Assembly: GCF_000281045.1 (NCBI RefSeq)
Contig: NW_008246152.1
Coordinates: 153,847 to 178,314 of the forward strand
Direction of reading: 5' to 3'
Source of the DNA: Saprolegnia diclina VS20
Lineage: Eukaryota; Oomycota; Saprolegniomycetes; Saprolegniales; Saprolegniaceae
DNA length: 24,468 nucleotides
Each line of letters opens with the position of its first letter. The first letter of the stretch is position 1. The notes under the pieces were generated by a model, which did not search any database, was not told the DNA's origin, and worked only from the letters and a program-made list of their open reading frames with translations. Of the stretch, positions 226-22,559 are shown in pieces. The position numbers and the translations under genes are program-made.

Positions 226-3210
226 ATGGCTCGTCAAGCACCGCCGGGCGTCCCGCCCGAGGTCATGCAAGTGCTCGAGTTCTTCTTCGACAGCGGGATC
301 TTCCCCATCCTCATGCTCGGCCTCTTTGCCTACAAGCTGCTGCCGGCGACCGACCCGATCCTGAGCCTCGTACGTCCATCGCTTGCTATGCATCATATTG
401 CTCATCTGCGCATTATGCGTTGCAGGAGCAAGTGAACCGGAAGCGGCCCAAGTTTGGCAAGCGCCACGTGGCCTTCAAGACCGACCTGGTACGCGCTATC
501 GCATGGGCGAAGGCGATCATCGTCCTCGATACGCTTGTGTAGAAGTGCTACATTGGCTCCGAGACAGGGCCCGACGGCAAGACCAAGGTGCTTGGCGACA
601 ACGTGTGTGGCCGCCAAGTCTGGCGTCCCCATGGTACACTGCATATGCGAAGCATGCGACGCTCAGACGCCATCAACGCTAGGCGAGACGATCGAGCTCC
701 CGCCCTTCTCGGCGGCCGAGAACCCCAACGCCGGCGACAAGCTCTTTCGCCAGCTCATGCTCCAGGGCAAGAAGGCGTCGGCGCCGACGACTCCCGCGTC
801 CTCCAACGTGGAAGAAGCGCTGCTCAAGGCCATTGACTTTTACCAGCTCCTCCAGGTCCGCCTCCGTTCTCTATCTCTTCTCACGCACCTTGGCGAGATA
901 GAGTGAGGATGGGTCGTGGCAAGGCGACTATGGCGGTCCGATGTTTCTCCTTCCTGGCCTCGTTGTCGTCTGCTACATCACGGGCCACGACGTTGGCCAG
1001 TCGATGAAGAACGGCATGGTCGTCCTCCTCAAGAACCACCAGCAGCTCGACGGCGGCTGGGGCATGCACATTGAAGAGGGCTCGACCATGTTTGGCACCG
1101 TCATGAACTACGTGGCGCTGCGTCTTCTCGGTACGACCCATCGTCCATTCTGCGTGTCCTCATGCTCTTTCGCTAGGCGTGCCGGCCACCGACGACGCGT
1201 GCATGGAGGCCCGCGGGTTCATCCGTCGCCACGGTGGCGCGACGCTGGTCCCGTCGTGGGGCAAGTTTTACCTCTCGGTCCTCAACATCTACGACTACGC
1301 CGGCATGGACTCGGTGCCGCCCGAGATGTGGTGCCTCCCGTCCTGGTTCCCGTTCCATCCCGGTCGCATGTGGGTGCACTGCCGCATGGTACGTTATTCG
1401 TATCTGTCATCTTCTTGTCACGGAGGCTCATGAATGATATACGCTAGGTCTACTTGCCTATCTCGTACTTGTACGGCCGTCGGTACCAAGCGCCGCTCAC
1501 GCCGCTGCTCAAGGAACTCCGTGAAGAGCTCTACATGACGCCATATGCGCAAGTGTCGTGGTCGGCGGCCCGGGGCGCGTACTGTCCGCTGGACGAGTAC
1601 CACCCGCCGTCCTTCCTTATGCGGGCCGCCAACTACCTGCTGTCGTGGTACGAGCTGCTGCCTGCGATCACGCCGTTCCGCCGCCGTGGCCTCGAGTATG
1701 CGATGCAGTTCATTCACGCCGAAGACGAACAGACCAACTACTGCGGCATTGGGCCGGTCAACAAGGTCATGAACATGCTCGCTGTCTGGGTCGACGACCC
1801 GACTTCGGACGCGTTCAAGAAGCACCAGCAGCGCATTGAAGATTACCTCTGGTACACTGTTCGATCCCCGCCATTCTGGGTTTTTACATATTTTTCTGTG
1901 TAGGGTTGCGGAAGATGGCGTCAAGATGCAAGGCTACATCGGGTCGCACACGTGGGACACGAGCTTTGCGATCCAGGGCTACTTTGAAGCGGGTCTTGGC
2001 CTCCGCGACGTCAACACAAAGATGGTCGCCCGCGCGTACCACTACCTTGAGCAAGCGCAGAACCGCCATGAAATCGAAAACCGCGCGTACTGGTGGCGCA
2101 GCGAGCAAAAGGGCGGCTGGGGCTTTGGCCCGTCGGCCAACGGGTACCCGGTCACCGACTGCACGGGCGAGGCCATGAAGGCCATGATGCTCATCGACGC
2201 GCACGCCGGCGACGATGTGGTTGCGACCAAGTTGCCGTTTGAGCGCTACTGCGAAGCGGTCGACTTTTTGCTGGCGCTTCAGAATGACGACGGTGCGTCA
2301 CATTCTTCTCGGGGTCGCTCATGGACAATGGCATGTAGGTGGCTTTCCCACGTATGAAAAGAGCCGCGGGTTCGAGTGGTACGAGTACCTCAATCCCGCA
2401 GTCATCTTTGGCGGCATCATGATCGACTACTCGTACATTGAGTGCTCGTCGACGTCGCTCTGCGCGCTGGTCATGTTCCACGAAAAGTACCCGAGTTACC
2501 GCCCCGAGAAGATTCGCCGGTCCATCAAGCGCGCTGAGACGTTCATTCGCCACCAGCAGTTTGCCGATGGCAGCTTCTTTGGCAAGTGGGGCGTCTGCTA
2601 CCTCTACGGCACGTGGTTTGCGGTTGTCGGGTACGCATTGTCTCTTTGTGTTTGGACACATTGTCATCGACTTCGTATAGGCTGCGTGGCGCCGGTGCGA
2701 CCGAGGACGACGAAGATGTCAAAGATGCGGTCAAGTTTGTGTGCTCCAAGCAGCGCGCGGACGGCGGCTGGACCGAGAGCTTCTTTGGCTGCGTGAGCAA
2801 GCGCTACCTCGAGACGGAAGAGAGCCAAGTGGTGTCGACTGCGTGGGCGCTTCTCGGTGCGTGCTGCTGCGGAGAGGGTCACGACATATGCTCATCGTGT
2901 GTATGTCTGATGTAGCGCTGATGAAGGGCATTGAGCGCAAGAACGGACCGCAAGATGGCTTTGAGAAGGAGTGGGACGTGGTGCGCCGGGGCATTCGGGT
3001 ACGTTGCGAGGAGTCGGAAGAAGAGCTGGACGACTCATCGTTGGCTAGTTTTTGATGTCCAAGCAGCTTTCGAGTGGCGACTGGGACCAGGAGCGCATCT
3101 GCGGCGTCTTCAACCGCAGTTGCGGCATCACGTACACGGCGTTCCGCAACGTGTTTCCGTTCTGGGCGCTCGGTCTCTACCACAAGCTCCAGCCTGGGCA
3201 GTCGCTTTAA
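226..3210 (+). CDS. Oxidosqualene cyclase (predicted lanosterol synthase), 12 exons
   Basis: This enzyme cyclises 2,3-oxidosqualene to the first tetracyclic sterol at the ER membrane. Exons: 226-369, 426-488, 543-633, 683-855, 902-1130, 1177-1388, 1448-1851, 1904-2292, 2339-2630, 2681-2856, 2916-2998, 3049-3210. They total 2418 nt (805 aa), against about 760 aa usual for the family. Seen: the GRQVW block near residues 93-97, EDGSWQGDYGGPMFLLPG from 159, several QW-type repeats, VTDCTGE with the catalytic Asp at 524, and the C-terminal GDW...GVFN...FPFWALG signature. Residues equivalent to plant CAS Tyr410, His477 and Ile481 are Tyr450, Asn518 and Val522, which I read as lanosterol rather than cycloartenol formation. 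About 65 extra N-terminal residues include a hydrophobic stretch near 24-39, possibly a membrane anchor. The start is the first ATG that leads into this frame. The family assignment is very secure; product specificity is inferred. Confidence 0.95.
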
Positions 3211-4283
3211 GCATACGACGTCGTTGCCTTGTGTAATGTATTGGGTTGCATCTGCGAGCATCTTGTCCAAGCTGCCACCGTCGACAGCAACCGTTGTAGA
3301 TTCAATATGACGTGGCACGCCCTCCTGTCGAATCTCCAGGACAGGATGCAGTCACCGCTAAGAACTCATAGGTCGATCTATGTATTTTGAGAGGTACTGA
3401 ATCTTGATACGCGCCCCGACGACGGCAACCGAATCTTTCCGCGAGGGTTTGTCCCAATTGTCCCAACACGCGATCGACCCCATATCTCTCCTACCTCTGC
3501 GTGAGGCGTTGCGGACTTGCAGAAGAACCAAGCAGCATCGAGTATCTTCACGACTATTTTTCTCCTTTGAGCATCGACATCTTCGTCCTCTGTTCTCATG
3601 TGAAAATTTGAGAAAAGAATGCAATATGCAACAAATGAAAATGTCGGAAACGACGCTGGAAACCATCATATTGCTGGAAACAAGCGCGAAAACTCCAAGT
3701 CCCAGCTCTCGTCAAGCCACGACTAGCCACATATGCGGGTTACAACGCAGTCGGCAGGTCCCGCAACGTGATGGTTGACGGGAGGAATTGAGGTTTCCTT
3801 TCGAAGACAACCTCGTAGACCTGCGAGAGGACGACATCGTTCAATGTCGAGACGCTTGTTCAAGAGCCCACAATTGCGACGCTGGCGGTATACTTGCTGG
3901 CCTACTACTCGCCTTCTCAAGCCCGTGCGCCCGGGCACGGTTTGCCCCAGAACCGATCTTGGGACAAACCTGTAAAATTTGGGCGCGAGAATCTACGAAT
4001 GCGTTCTGAGAGGTTTCTAGTCGCCCTTTTCTTTGGATATTCTGCAGCATTTGATACATCCGAGCCCGCTTGAAGTTGCATGGTACGCGAAAACGGCTTG
4101 AAATTAATTTCCGCAACTTCAATTCGATCGATAAGCACGGTGTGTTTGTATGCAACATCCGACAAGAAAAAAAAGACGCTTCTCCTGTTTTTTCTCGGCT
4201 GCTTGAAGACCTCTGGAACTCGATATTCGTGGCACGCGGAACCGACGCCGCAGTCGAGAATATCCCACCAAGTACCCAAGACG
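3211..4283. other. Intergenic stretch with no supported gene
   Basis: About 1.1 kb between the cyclase and the PX gene. Open frames on both strands are short and resemble no family I know. One plus-strand frame stays open from about 3840 to 4072 and could be a decayed coding fragment, but it has no start. A GTATCAA-type heptamer (as TTGATAC) lies at 3404-3410. The sequence is more AT-rich than the flanking genes and should hold the cyclase 3' UTR and the PX promoter. Confidence 0.6.
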
Positions 4284-5006
4284 ATGATCAACAAGGTCCG
4301 CACGATCCAGAGCAGCAAGCGCGCCCGCGGCTCCGCGAAGAAGTCCAAGAAGCTCCAGCAGCTCGAGCTGCAGCAGGCCATGGAGGCCGCGACCCTCGAC
4401 GAGCTCCTCATCGTCCCCCTCGTCCCGACGACCGAGACGACGAGCTCCAAGACGACCCCCAGCATGCCCAAGAAGCCCGATGACGCCCATGACGACGAGA
4501 AGACGGACGTCGAAGAAGACGAGAGCGACGCGAACGACGATGGCGACGAGGAAGACGTGGTCGTGATCGCGAGCCCGACAGCGTCGAGCGTCTGCACGCG
4601 CTTCCTCAGCAAGACCTTCTGGAGCCCCAAGGACATCAAGGCGCATGCGTCCGACCCGGATGCGACCTTCTCGGTGAGCATCCCGAGCTTCCGCGACATG
4701 GACGAGGGGTACATTGCGTACAACGTCGTGGTCGAGACGCCGTACCACACGTGGGCGGTCGAGAAGCGCTACTCGGAGTTTGTGCTACTCGCGCAGACGC
4801 TGCAGCTCAAGGAGATCCACATGGACCTCCCGCCCAAGACGTGGTTCAAGGTCACACAAGACACGGTCTTATCAGACCGGCGAGAGCGTCTCGAGGCGGC
4901 GTGCGTCGACCTCCTCCAGCGCGACAACATGGTGTCCATCGCCCTCGTGCGCGAGTTTTTCCAGCTCGACGTGTTTGCCATGAGCTTGACCGAGAGCTGC
5001 CCGTAA
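4284..5006 (+). CDS. PX-domain protein (phosphoinositide binding)
   Basis: A single-exon protein of 240 aa. Residues 1-35 are basic and lysine-rich. Roughly residues 70-95 form a highly acidic Asp/Glu tract. A PX (phox homology) domain fills about 125-237. Visible PX features are the Arg-Tyr-Ser-Glu-Phe core (RYSEF), the proline-containing LPPKTWF loop, and a downstream DRRERLE segment leading into C-terminal helices. In this family those Arg and Lys residues contact a 3-phosphoinositide, usually PI3P, so a peripheral endosomal protein is likely. No BAR domain or other catalytic domain is present, so it is not a full sorting nexin. The frame is open upstream to 4080, but that stretch is AT-rich and unlike the rest, so I chose the ATG at 4284. 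Partner and pathway are unknown. Confidence 0.85.
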   Translation: MINKVRTIQSSKRARGSAKKSKKLQQLELQQAMEAATLDELLIVPLVPTTETTSSKTTPSMPKKPDDAHDDEKTDVEEDESDANDDGDEEDVVVIASPTASSVCTRFLSKTFWSPKDIKAHASDPDATFSVSIPSFRDMDEGYIAYNVVVETPYHTWAVEKRYSEFVLLAQTLQLKEIHMDLPPKTWFKVTQDTVLSDRRERLEAACVDLLQRDNMVSIALVREFFQLDVFAMSLTESCP

Positions 5007-15002: not shown

Positions 15003-15352
15003 GCTGCGGCTTGTGTGCTTTTGACCTTGCGGAAATTGTATTCACAAAAGGGGGTGTTTGTGCCACCCCTTGTATTTAATTTCTGAGAGTTGGTCGTTTT
15101 CATTTGCTGTGCTTGCGTCCAGTAGAGAATCCACGTACGTTGGCTGCTGCAAACCCTTGAGCCTATACCTCCATCGTCGATGCGCTGCGTCTATAGCAGT
15201 TATATGCGCTCGTTGCGGCCCATGCGATGGCATTTGAGATCTCATTTCGAAAGTGGGGTCGCGCGACCACCCCTTTAGGTGAACGGTAATATCCGGATGT
15301 CCGGATACGACTGCACTTGCGTTCGCGTCCTCATCCTGCCGGCCGGATCCCG
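15003..15352. promoter_or_regulatory. Bidirectional promoter region between PAC1-like and Dna2 genes
   Basis: This 350-bp gap separates two divergent start codons. It holds a 12-bp palindrome GGTCGCGCGACC (15257-15268) and the dyad TATCCGG-ATGT-CCGGATA (15290-15307), whose end is 45 nt before the Dna2 ATG. I see no CCAAT box and no open frame of note. Both dyads are candidate protein-binding sites; the factors are unknown. Confidence 0.45.
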
Positions 15353-18300
15353 ATGGAGCGAGCAGCGATCTTTGGCGGAGACGACGACGTCGCCGGCGCG
15401 TCGCCCATGAAGGACGAGGCCATGGGCGTCGTCTGGAAGGAGTCGCCAAGCGACAAGAAGCTCAAGCCCAGCGGCGCCAGCAACCCGCAGGTCAACGCGA
15501 CCGAGCTGCAAGGCTTTGTCACGAGCTTGATCACGAGCCCGTCGCCCAACAAAAAGAGCCAAACCTCCAAGCTCAAGTTCAAGAAGAAGATCGTAGGCGC
15601 ACCCGATGGCATCACACGCCATATCGCGTTCAGCCCGGACAAGCATCTCCGACCTCCGACCGTGCCCATTACGTCGCCCCCAGCCCGCTCGAAGCGGCGC
15701 AAGACAGGCGGCGGCGACGAAGACCAGAACCTGCTCTCGATACTGCAAAAGATGGACGATGCGTACGCCGACTCGCCCGAGAAGGGCCCGCCGACGACGC
15801 TTCCCGCACCCGCCCCTGCCGAGCCACCGGCGACGACCAGTACCATGCCCGATGTGGACATGGACGACGAGGAGTTTACCGAAGAAGCATGGGGCATCCT
15901 GGAAGAGATGGAGATCCAGGCCACGCAGCAGATGCTCGAGCGCGACCAGAAAGCGCAGGCGCGACCACTGGATGCCAGCCCCATGGGTCCGTCCCGTATC
16001 GTCGAGCCGCGCTCTGGGATGAGCCCCGCGGTCGTACCACGCAACCCACTGCATCAAGTCATGCGCCCGCCCACGACGACGCCTGCCATGCCTGCGATGC
16101 CCGCTCACAGCGTACAGCGACACGTACAAGACGGTCCAGGTCGAGATCCAGCACGTCCTGTGGCGCCCGATACGGCGACAACGACCGCGCCACCAGCGCC
16201 CGTGACGCCAGTGCGCGCCAAGCCCACAGACTACATTCGGCTCGTCGCGCTTGAAGCCCATACGGACCATGCGCAGCGCAAGCTGCTGCTTCGCGCCATC
16301 GACGACGACGCTATCGTGCACGACGTCGTCTTGGCCGACGACTGGTATGGCACGCCGCTCGTCATCGGCGATACGTTCAATTTCATCTGGACAACGCCAC
16401 GTACGTCGTCATCCCTCATTGCGAGCAACGCCGCCCATCTCGTGATCGTGCACCCCGATATCCTCGTACACACTAACCAACCTATCCAAGTATCCATGTA
16501 TCCGAGTAGGTGTCGCCGACCGCCGTGACGTCGAGTCTCCGCTGCGGTCGCATGGCGGTGCTCCAGCAGACGCTCTCGATGAACCAGCCGTCGGGTGCAA
16601 AGGCGCTTGTGGGTACGATGAAGCACGACCTCTTTGAACGCGCGCTGCAGTCGGGCTACCATTCGATCCCGTACCTCATTGAGCAAAGCCAAAGCATCAT
16701 CCAAGACAGGTCTATTGTATCAAGAACGTATCAACTTGATCATTTGCAACATGTAGTCTGCTCAAGTGCTTGGAGTCGGGCATCACCGAGACCCAAGCGG
16801 CCGAAGAAATGAGGTCGTCGTTCCAGAGCATGCACGTCTGGCTGCAAAAGCTCCACACGTCCGGCGTCGTTGTCGGCAACGCGACGCTGCGTCTCGAGGC
16901 GGTTCTTGCCACGGAGGAGCCGCTGTGGTCAATCAAATATGGTCTTAAAGGCGCGGTGGACGCGACAATCCGTGTGCTCCAGAACGGCACGCGCAAGACC
17001 ATCGTACCGCTCGAGCTCAAGACCGGCAAGAAGGCGTATGCGCTCGCCGAGCACCACGGCCAAGTCCTCTTGTACTCGCTCCTTCTCGAAGAGCGGTACC
17101 GAGGTAGCGTCGGATTTTATTGATTTATTTGTTGCTCATGGAGTTTGAACCTGAGTAGAGTGCTCGGAGGGTCTCCTCTTATACCTGCTCGAGACCGAGT
17201 CGCTGTTAATTGCACGCGAGATGCCGATCGCCCGTGCGCTGCTCCAAGCACGGAATCAGCACGCCGCCAATATGGCCAAGTACCAAGGCGAGAGCGTGTA
17301 CCCGCCCATGCTCCGCCAGCCGCGCGACTGCGGCTTTTGCTTCTCGGCGGCCGAGTGCATGCTTCACCACGCGTCCGAAGAGATGGGCACGGCGGCGACC
17401 AGGTTTTTTCTTGCTTGATTTGTTTGTATCAATGTATCAATTCTAGTGGCGCCGTCGATGTGTTTGCCAAGCACACGACCCACTTGCTACAAGACGAGCG
17501 CGCGTACTTTGCCACGTGGAATCGGCTCGTGGACCTCGAGTTCCGGTCGAGCCAAACCGCAGTCCAGCAGCTCTGGCTCAACTCGAACGACGACCGTGCT
17601 GCGAATGGCTCGTGCTTGCTGCACTTGAGCCTCGCGAACGTGACGCCCAAGACGCTCCGGCTGCGATCTCGGACACTACTGGCCTCGACCGATCTCAAGT
17701 TTCACGTCGACGATCGCGTCATTTTGAGCTGCGAGTCGGACGCCGCTCTGCTTCTCCATACAGCCAAAGGACGCATCACAGGTACTAAGTTCAACGAAAT
17801 GGCCAAAGAAATGACTATATGGCCATGATGTACACTAGCGTTGCTTGACCAAGACATTGAAATCGCCTTGTTTGCGCCGATCTCACGCGCCGTGCTGCAA
17901 GGCGACTCGGTCGTGGGCGCGCACCCGCACTGGCGCATGGACAAGGACATGGTGTCGTGGGGCCTCTTGCAAGCCAAGCGCAACCTCGCGCAGCTCTTTG
18001 TCGGCCCGTCGCCGCACGGTATCTCGGCCGGCGTCCATCCGACCCGCTTCCTTCGACCACCCCTCGATCCCGAGACCGACAAGTGCGGCGACGACGTCCG
18101 GCGCAAGTTGATTTGCCGCCTTGAACCGCCTCGGTTTCTAGCCCCTACGACGACGCTGGGCATGCTCCAAGCCCATGCGATCGCGCATCCGACAAGCCCG
18201 CGCTACGAAGCCCTCTACAACGACTTCTTACGCATGAACCCCGACCAGCAGCGTGCGATTGAAAAGGTGTGAACGCGTCGTTTCGATTTGGTTTCTCAAG

Positions 18301-21668: not shown

Positions 21669-22559
21669 TTACGCGGCCTTGGCCTTCATCTTCTTGACGT
21701 CGTCGAGGGGGCCGGTGCCCGTGAACGGACTCGGTTCGCGGTACGAGCCACCAAGATGGTCCCAGAGCGTAAAATATTGGCCATAGTTGACCGTAAAAAA
21801 CAAGTGGTGGTCCGTGTGGTGCGCGGCGCCGTTGACGATCTTCTCAAACCACCACGGCATCTTGTCCATGACAAAGTCACCGTCATGGATCGAGATGGTC
21901 CAAAAGTTGACAAGCACAAAGAGGCCCAGATACACGACTAGAATGTGTGCAATGTGAGAAATCCAGATAGCACAAGATCTGGTCGACATACCTTTTTGAA
22001 GCGGCATCAGAAAGATGAAAATGTGGTACGGCGTCGACTGGAGAAAGCCGTCGAGCGGGTCGAACGCATGGCTCGCAAACGGCGACGGCACGAGCCACTT
22101 GTGGTGCAGCTTGTGGACGTGCTTGTAGATGAGCGGGTGGTGCAGCCAGCGGTGGATCCAGTAGATGGCCATGTCGTTGAACATCATAAAACAAAAGATG
22201 CTGAATGCAAGGTACGGGTAACCATACTCGTCGAGGTCGTCGTAGAGGAAGCTGTAGCCGCGCACTTCGGCGAGGAAGACGGGCAGCGTCAATAGCGTCA
22301 TGACCGGAATCGCCGAGCACGACACCTTCATCTCGAGCCAGATCTGATTTTTCAGAAACTTGGGGTGCTTCATGTACTCCTTGTCGTACACAAAGTGGTA
22401 GCTCAGCGTCGCAAAGCTTAGGTAGAGGACGTAGCCGCCGAGCATCGTGATGAAGAAGAGCGAGATGGCTTGGCGGTAGACGTCGTCGGCCGGCCATGAC
22501 GCCGGGTACACGTGCGGCGTGAGGACGTACTCGTCCGCGGCCGCGAGCACCAAGTCCAT
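21669..22559 (-). CDS. Sterol C-5 desaturase (ERG3/SC5D-like)
   Basis: This is an ER-membrane di-iron enzyme introducing the C5-C6 double bond of Delta7 sterols, a late step of the pathway begun by the cyclase at 226-3210. Two exons, 22559-21992 and 21937-21669, give 837 nt (278 aa), close to the usual length. The three histidine clusters of the fatty acid hydroxylase superfamily are present: HRWLHH (136-141), HKLHH (149-153) and HTDHH (230-234). ERG3-typical text follows: PFASHAFDPLDG, PLQK, NFWTISIHDGDF, NYGQYFTLWDHLGGSYREP. Hydrophobic spans lie near 30-50, 82-97, 115-130 and 176-205. The intron 21991-21938 (GTATGT...TAG) is 54 nt and stop-free, so it can be read through as 18 extra residues. 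Splicing restores the family consensus PLQK-x-x-YLGLF, so I treat it as an intron. The C-terminus is Lys/Ala-rich, possibly an ER-retrieval tail. Confidence 0.94.
   Translation of the reverse strand: MDLVLAAADEYVLTPHVYPASWPADDVYRQAISLFFITMLGGYVLYLSFATLSYHFVYDKEYMKHPKFLKNQIWLEMKVSCSAIPVMTLLTLPVFLAEVRGYSFLYDDLDEYGYPYLAFSIFCFMMFNDMAIYWIHRWLHHPLIYKHVHKLHHKWLVPSPFASHAFDPLDGFLQSTPYHIFIFLMPLQKGMSTRSCAIWISHIAHILVVYLGLFVLVNFWTISIHDGDFVMDKMPWWFEKIVNGAAHHTDHHLFFTVNYGQYFTLWDHLGGSYREPSPFTGTGPLDDVKKMKAKAA

Follow-up and report, generated by a model that had tools for sequence, protein, structure and literature searches.

Here we show that an entire oxidosqualene cyclase (OSC) gene, almost certainly encoding a lanosterol synthase (EC 5.4.99.7 type), lies in a 24,468-nucleotide stretch of the Saprolegnia diclina VS20 genome (the window). 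The enzyme would have descended from a cycloartenol synthase (CAS)-like enzyme of algal/stramenopile type that had Tyr, His and Ile (Y,H,I) at the three discriminating positions, and would have done so separately from plant LAS1 and from the cyclases of methanotrophs. At these positions the S. diclina enzyme has Tyr, Asn and Val (Y,N,V), of which Asn/Val is the pair with which chemists made a lanosterol synthase out of a plant cycloartenol synthase. In the sampled tree the pair is present on three distinct branches, those of oomycetes, plants and methanotrophs, which confirms the repeated evolution already published. Our additions to this are modest: the position in the tree becomes firmer, the pair is placed on a third natural branch, and changes specific to oomycetes are listed on the side of the substrate pocket.

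The gene runs from 226 to 3210 on the forward strand in 12 exons, with 805 codons and a stop, encoding a protein of 805 amino acids. Its 11 introns, of 46 to 59 bases, are all GT-AG, and there are no internal stops (Table 1). Both cyclase domains are found in the protein, PF13249 with 157.3 bits against a cut-off of 26.2 and PF13243 with 182.6 bits against 26.1, and the catalytic acid of the DCTGE motif, Asp524, corresponds to Asp455 of human lanosterol synthase (LSS). The protein and structure searches were run with an 803-residue version of the query, two residues fewer than the final protein. The closest homologue is SPRG_11783 (SpLASA) of Saprolegnia parasitica (P0001), likewise of 805 residues, with 95.3% ungapped identity, the same domains, and Y450, N518 and V522 at the same numbering, so that the two differ in about 5% of their residues. 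Identity amounts to 82% for Achlya, 77% for Thraustotheca and 62-64% for three Aphanomyces species. In the 54-Mb genome the search yielded one cyclase locus, with at least three matches of PF13243 and at least three of PF13249, counts that are lower bounds and that all fall within this gene; S. parasitica, in contrast, has a second, truncated copy, SPRG_17895.

Table 1. Exons of the cyclase gene, residues of the three discriminating positions and the catalytic motif, and the positions that are changed in oomycetes. Positions are those of the window; human LSS numbering was taken from the alignment with structures 1w6j/1w6k.
Feature	Position	Strand	Remark
Exon 1	226..369	+	Start ATG; encodes hydrophobic N-terminal stretch
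Exon 2	426..488	+	
Exon 3	543..633	+	
Exon 4	683..855	+	
Exon 5	902..1130	+	Acceptor set from homologue comparison
Exon 6	1177..1388	+	Carries Val300 (human Cys231), adjoining the His aligned with human His232
Exon 7	1448..1851	+	
Exon 8	1904..2292	+	Tyr450, Ile451, Gly514, Asn518, Tyr520, Val522, catalytic Asp524
Exon 9	2339..2630	+	
Exon 10	2681..2856	+	
Exon 11	2916..2998	+	
Exon 12 and stop codon	3049..3210	+	
Tyr450 (TAC)	1935..1937	+	AtCAS1 Tyr410, human Thr381
Asn518 (AAC)	2139..2141	+	AtCAS1 His477, human Cys449
Val522 (GTC)	2151..2153	+	AtCAS1 Ile481, human Val453
DCTGE catalytic acid motif	2157..2171	+	Asp524 is GAC at 2157-2159
Residue 300			Human 231; Cys to Val in oomycetes
Residue 451 (Ile451)	1938..1940	+	Human Asn382; Asn in almost every other OSC sampled, Ile/Val in oomycetes
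Residue 514			Human 445; Ser to Gly in oomycetes
Residue 520 (Tyr520)	2145..2147	+	Human Trp451; Trp in almost every other OSC sampled, Tyr in oomycetes
Residue 648			Human 577; Trp to Phe in oomycetes
Residue 697			Human 630; Gly to Ser/Thr in oomycetes

The AtCAS1 motifs KMQGYNGSQ (406-414) and TADHGWPISDC (474-484), which hold Tyr410, His477 and Ile481 (PMC7060231), align with the cyclase without gaps and place Tyr450, Asn518 and Val522 at exactly these sites, in agreement with the alignment to human LSS. The initial annotation had paired the residues in this way and had placed them in the interval 1904-2292, which is exactly exon 8; the alignment with homologues also puts Y,N,V of this enzyme, rather than other residues, at the three sites. 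Val522 occupies the position of human Val453, where, following the Val/Ile rule, Val has been linked to lanosterol (PMC4919349). Natural CAS1 carries the Tyr/His/Ile triad of cycloartenol synthases, unlike the cyclase studied here. With its Y,N,V triad and its place in a well-supported oomycete clade (see below), the protein belongs to the oomycete lanosterol synthase group of Dahlin et al. (2016).

That work reported Y,N,V for SPRG_11783 (positions 450, 518 and 522) as well as for S. diclina, three Aphanomyces species and plant LAS (PMC5101207). Moreover, the triad of plant LAS1 was published in 2006, and the LAS1 enzymes of Arabidopsis and Lotus have been characterised as lanosterol synthases (both as cited in PMC5101207). 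The presence of the Asn/Val pair in the oomycete and plant enzymes is therefore an already published observation, correct and ordinary, and the newness that the initial annotation implied for a natural occurrence of the pair falls away, while its residues, its prediction of lanosterol and its CAS-like ancestry all stand. As for the product, recombinant SPRG_11783, which was also purified, yielded lanosterol with no other sterol detected, in vitro as well as in E. coli cells (PMC5101207). Because this ortholog is 95.3% identical and makes only lanosterol, we infer the same product for the S. diclina enzyme.

In the OSC family, a cascade of ring closures and subsequent methyl and hydride shifts follow protonation of the epoxide. 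In the S. diclina enzyme, Asp524 of the DCTGE motif would protonate the epoxide of 2,3-oxidosqualene, and the cascade and shifts would proceed as in all OSCs. The pocket would then steer the last deprotonation towards the C8-C9 double bond of lanosterol, instead of the C19 cyclopropane of cycloartenol. By analogy with plant mutagenesis, Asn518 and Val522, which replace the His and Ile of CAS, are most likely the main cause of this outcome. The same two residues make up the Arabidopsis CAS1 H477N/I481V double mutant, reportedly an engineered lanosterol-forming enzyme (Lodeiro and colleagues, 2005), which differs in being laboratory-made.

How common the triad is was read from four sets of cyclases. 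Aligning the protein of the window with the best 120 of 1764 matches gave 107 Y,H,I rows, nine Y,N,V, three Y,Q,V, one E,Q,V and one that was unreadable. Eight of the nine oomycete rows (the window and P0001-P0008, from eight species) have Y,N,V; in the gene model of the ninth, P0008, the stretch with the triad is missing. Among the 111 non-oomycete rows of the same 120 best matches, leaving aside one Populus sequence, 107 are Y,H,I, three Y,Q,V and one E,Q,V. With Y,N,V in eight of nine oomycete rows and in none of these 111 others, its presence in oomycetes is not a matter of chance. The pair is also found elsewhere: 60 of 121 plant rows (P0010 and P0121-P0240, the latter the best 120 of 7242 matches) have Y,N,V, next to 47 with Y,H,I and 14 with rarer triads or gaps. 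The bacterial set, the best 80 of 137 matches, comprises 78 loci, mostly from Bacteroidota and methanotrophs, with 41 Y,H,I, 20 Y,Q,V, nine Y,H,V, five Y,N,V, two Y,Q,I and one unreadable. The five Y,N,V loci are those of a Methylobacter (L051) and of Methylomonas lenta (L056), and three labelled Methylococcaceae (L057, L068 and L084). We saw no mention of this case among the patterns named in PMC5101207; two other Methylobacter strains are known to have made methylated sterols (PMC4919349). With Y,N,V present in oomycete, plant and bacterial rows, the Asn/Val pair is a recurring natural solution. The human query returned mostly vertebrate proteins, with T,C,V in 104 of the 120 rows (best 120 of 5286). 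No fungal or kinetoplastid cyclases were noticed among the named rows of the four sets.

In order to place the oomycete enzymes, we rely on a tree of 69 of the 320 aligned rows, 28 of them forced in and the rest picked at an identity cut of 64%. It was built on 636 columns, with positions 450, 451, 518, 520 and 522 taken out; the cyclases of Gemmata, Stigmatella and Methylococcus capsulatus that PMC5101207 names were not added to it. The seven oomycete rows form one clade (100/100), which lies within a clade of 19 rows (100/99). Of the other 12 rows in this larger clade, which include Ochromonas (P0012) and Ectocarpus (P0046), 11 have Y,H,I and one has Y,Q,V; the label algal/stramenopile-type rests on such named rows, both in this tree and in a preliminary FastTree of 308 rows. 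The immediate sister of the oomycetes is weakly supported (90/68), and the oomycete stem is long (0.68). The plant Y,N,V rows form a clade by themselves (100/99) that has the plant Y,H,I rows as its sister; in methanotrophs, the Y,N,V rows are sister to Y,Q,V rows. Contrasting Asn/Val with everything else takes three changes on the tree, a kind of count that cannot separate gain from loss.

An origin other than a CAS-like ancestor was put forward in 2016, namely an ancient Y,H,V lanosterol synthase of bacterial type from which the oomycete enzyme arose by a single His-to-Asn change, without ever having been a CAS. Group 2 of that study unites heterokonts with three bacterial cyclases (PMC5101207), and among our bacterial loci nine of 78 (best 80 of 137 matches) do encode a Y,H,V cyclase. 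Even so, we consider this origin very unlikely, as the oomycetes sit inside a clade that is almost exclusively Y,H,I, and constraining them with the six-row bacterial Val clade, which is made up of L092 and five rows of methanotroph type, was rejected at a cost of 102 log units (p-AU 2e-5). Grouping them with all eight bacterial Val522 rows was rejected as well (161 log units, p-AU 8e-53), and so was forcing all 14 Asn/Val rows together (618 log units, p-AU 7e-43). These last two constraints mix separate clades, and their cost is partly inflated because they also split other clades; the six-row constraint and the one with plant rows are fairer. The groups were in all cases chosen after inspection of the tree. 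With this clade position and these rejected constraints, the tree speaks for a CAS-like ancestor rather than for a bacterial Y,H,V origin. The independent route from such an ancestor that the initial annotation proposed is thereby supported: the line would lead from a Y,H,I enzyme to the oomycete Y,N,V form, apart from both plant LAS1 and the Y,N,V cyclases of methanotrophs.

Horizontal transfer or gene conversion from plant LAS1, whether of the gene or just of the stretch with Asn and Val, is vanishingly improbable. Y,N,V is common to both, and Dahlin et al. call cross-species transfer tempting (PMC5101207), but placing the oomycetes and the four plant Y,N,V rows in one clade, which a shared origin would require, was rejected by 157 log units (p-AU 7e-8). 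Furthermore, the local context differs, with GY[IV]GS and NGYPV in oomycetes against mostly GYNGS and NGWPV in the plant rows, and there is thus no sign of a local conversion from a plant gene. Finally, the source names of P0002 and P0003 label these oomycete homologues as cycloartenol synthases. It is extremely unlikely that the S. diclina enzyme is one, given that two of its three discriminating residues depart from Y,H,I, that its 95% identical ortholog is lanosterol-only, and that cycloartenol was undetected in S. parasitica mycelium (PMC5101207).

The metagenomic P0097, with a Glu/Gln/Val triad, adjoins the oomycetes in the FastTree (0.896) and shares Val at position 300 with them. We do not trust this placement, and P0097 was kept out of the main tree because it was suspected of being a long branch; it is possibly either a divergent relative or a long-branch artefact. 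Ten rows that were short, gapped or fused (P0007, P0008, P0010, P0126, L078, L082, L084, L085, L088 and L091) had been removed before the FastTree, together with two further rows with more than 25% gaps. The Y,Q,V rows P0086, P0095 and P0096 group within the algal/stramenopile-type Y,H,I clade, and in all three Thr replaces the Cys that follows the catalytic Asp. These rows may represent a further Val-type cyclase line in protists.

Beyond the triad, the oomycete enzymes depart from other cyclases at sites that are otherwise strongly conserved. Of 145 columns that are at least 95% conserved across up to 311 rows from outside the oomycetes, six differ in every one of the seven full-length oomycete rows (positions 300, 451, 514, 520, 648 and 697; Table 1). 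Across 431 non-oomycete rows, including the 120 of the human query (best of 5286), there were none with Ile or Val at 451, Gly at 514 or Tyr at 520, while Val at 300 occurs in one (P0097), Phe at 648 in seven and Ser at 697 in two. Tyr at 520 is present in all eight readable oomycete rows; the Tyr of P0008 at this position is a product of misalignment, as the stretch is missing from its gene model. Positions 300, 451, 514 and 520 are at most two residues away from His232, Thr381, Phe444 and Cys449/Val453, which we take to be pocket sites. It should be noted that the six-column pattern was spotted post hoc, that proximity to the pocket means proximity in sequence, and that fungi and kinetoplastids are outside the sample. 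Cys231 and Asn382, two of the residues replaced, are among ten conserved template residues (PMC6678101), and in the main text of PMC5101207 we came across no mention of the substituted positions.

These substitutions also set the oomycete enzymes apart from the other natural carriers of Asn/Val. Plant LAS1 has the Y,N,V triad in common with them but forms its own clade, and has Ile/Val at 451 and Tyr at 520 in none of the sampled rows; the cyclases of Methylococcaceae share the triad, yet are bacterial, fall beside Y,Q,V relatives and are likewise without the oomycete-type changes at 451 and 520. So could a lineage-specific remodelling of the pocket wall, in which Cys231, Asn382, Ser445 and Trp451 (human numbering) were replaced, have given lanosterol specificity beyond the Asn/Val pair? 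We regard this as a tentative idea that is rather less probable than not. If true, it would mean that the same product is made by a chemically distinct pocket, and that Asn/Val alone is not the whole switch. In the 2016 work, versions of SPRG_11783 with Y,H,V, with Y,N,I and with Y,H,I were constructed but their expression was unsuccessful (PMC5101207), and other oomycete-specific changes could thus matter as much as the pair. As such, the neighbouring substitutions found in oomycetes only provide a testable list for the share of the switch that lies outside the classic triad.

The genome holds further matches to protein families, namely to squalene epoxidase, ERG4/ERG24 (two loci), sterol methyltransferase (SMT) and several FA_hydroxylase genes; the EBP family gave one weak and partial match, at 27.6 bits. 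One FA_hydroxylase-family gene lies in the window itself, about 18 kb from the lanosterol synthase gene, as a single exon of 296 amino acids at 21669-22559 on the reverse strand. Presumably, the motifs of its protein resemble those of a Delta5 (C-5) sterol desaturase. In S. parasitica, ten locus tags separate SPRG_11783 from SPRG_11773, which is predicted to be a Delta5 sterol desaturase (PMC5289490). With a similar pair some 18 kb apart here, the linkage of lanosterol synthase and Delta5 desaturase appears to be conserved in Saprolegnia. Elsewhere in the window, an open frame at 4080-5006 on the forward strand carries a PX domain (33.3 bits), and another at 15317-16528, on the same strand, weakly matches the Dna2 replication factor, with a score barely above the cut-off (23 bits). 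Two more FA_hydroxylase-family genes are located on opposite strands at G000:C7:1076423-1078952, with about 2 kb between them, and one of these (L094) has what we take to be a sterol C-4 methyl oxidase-like motif.
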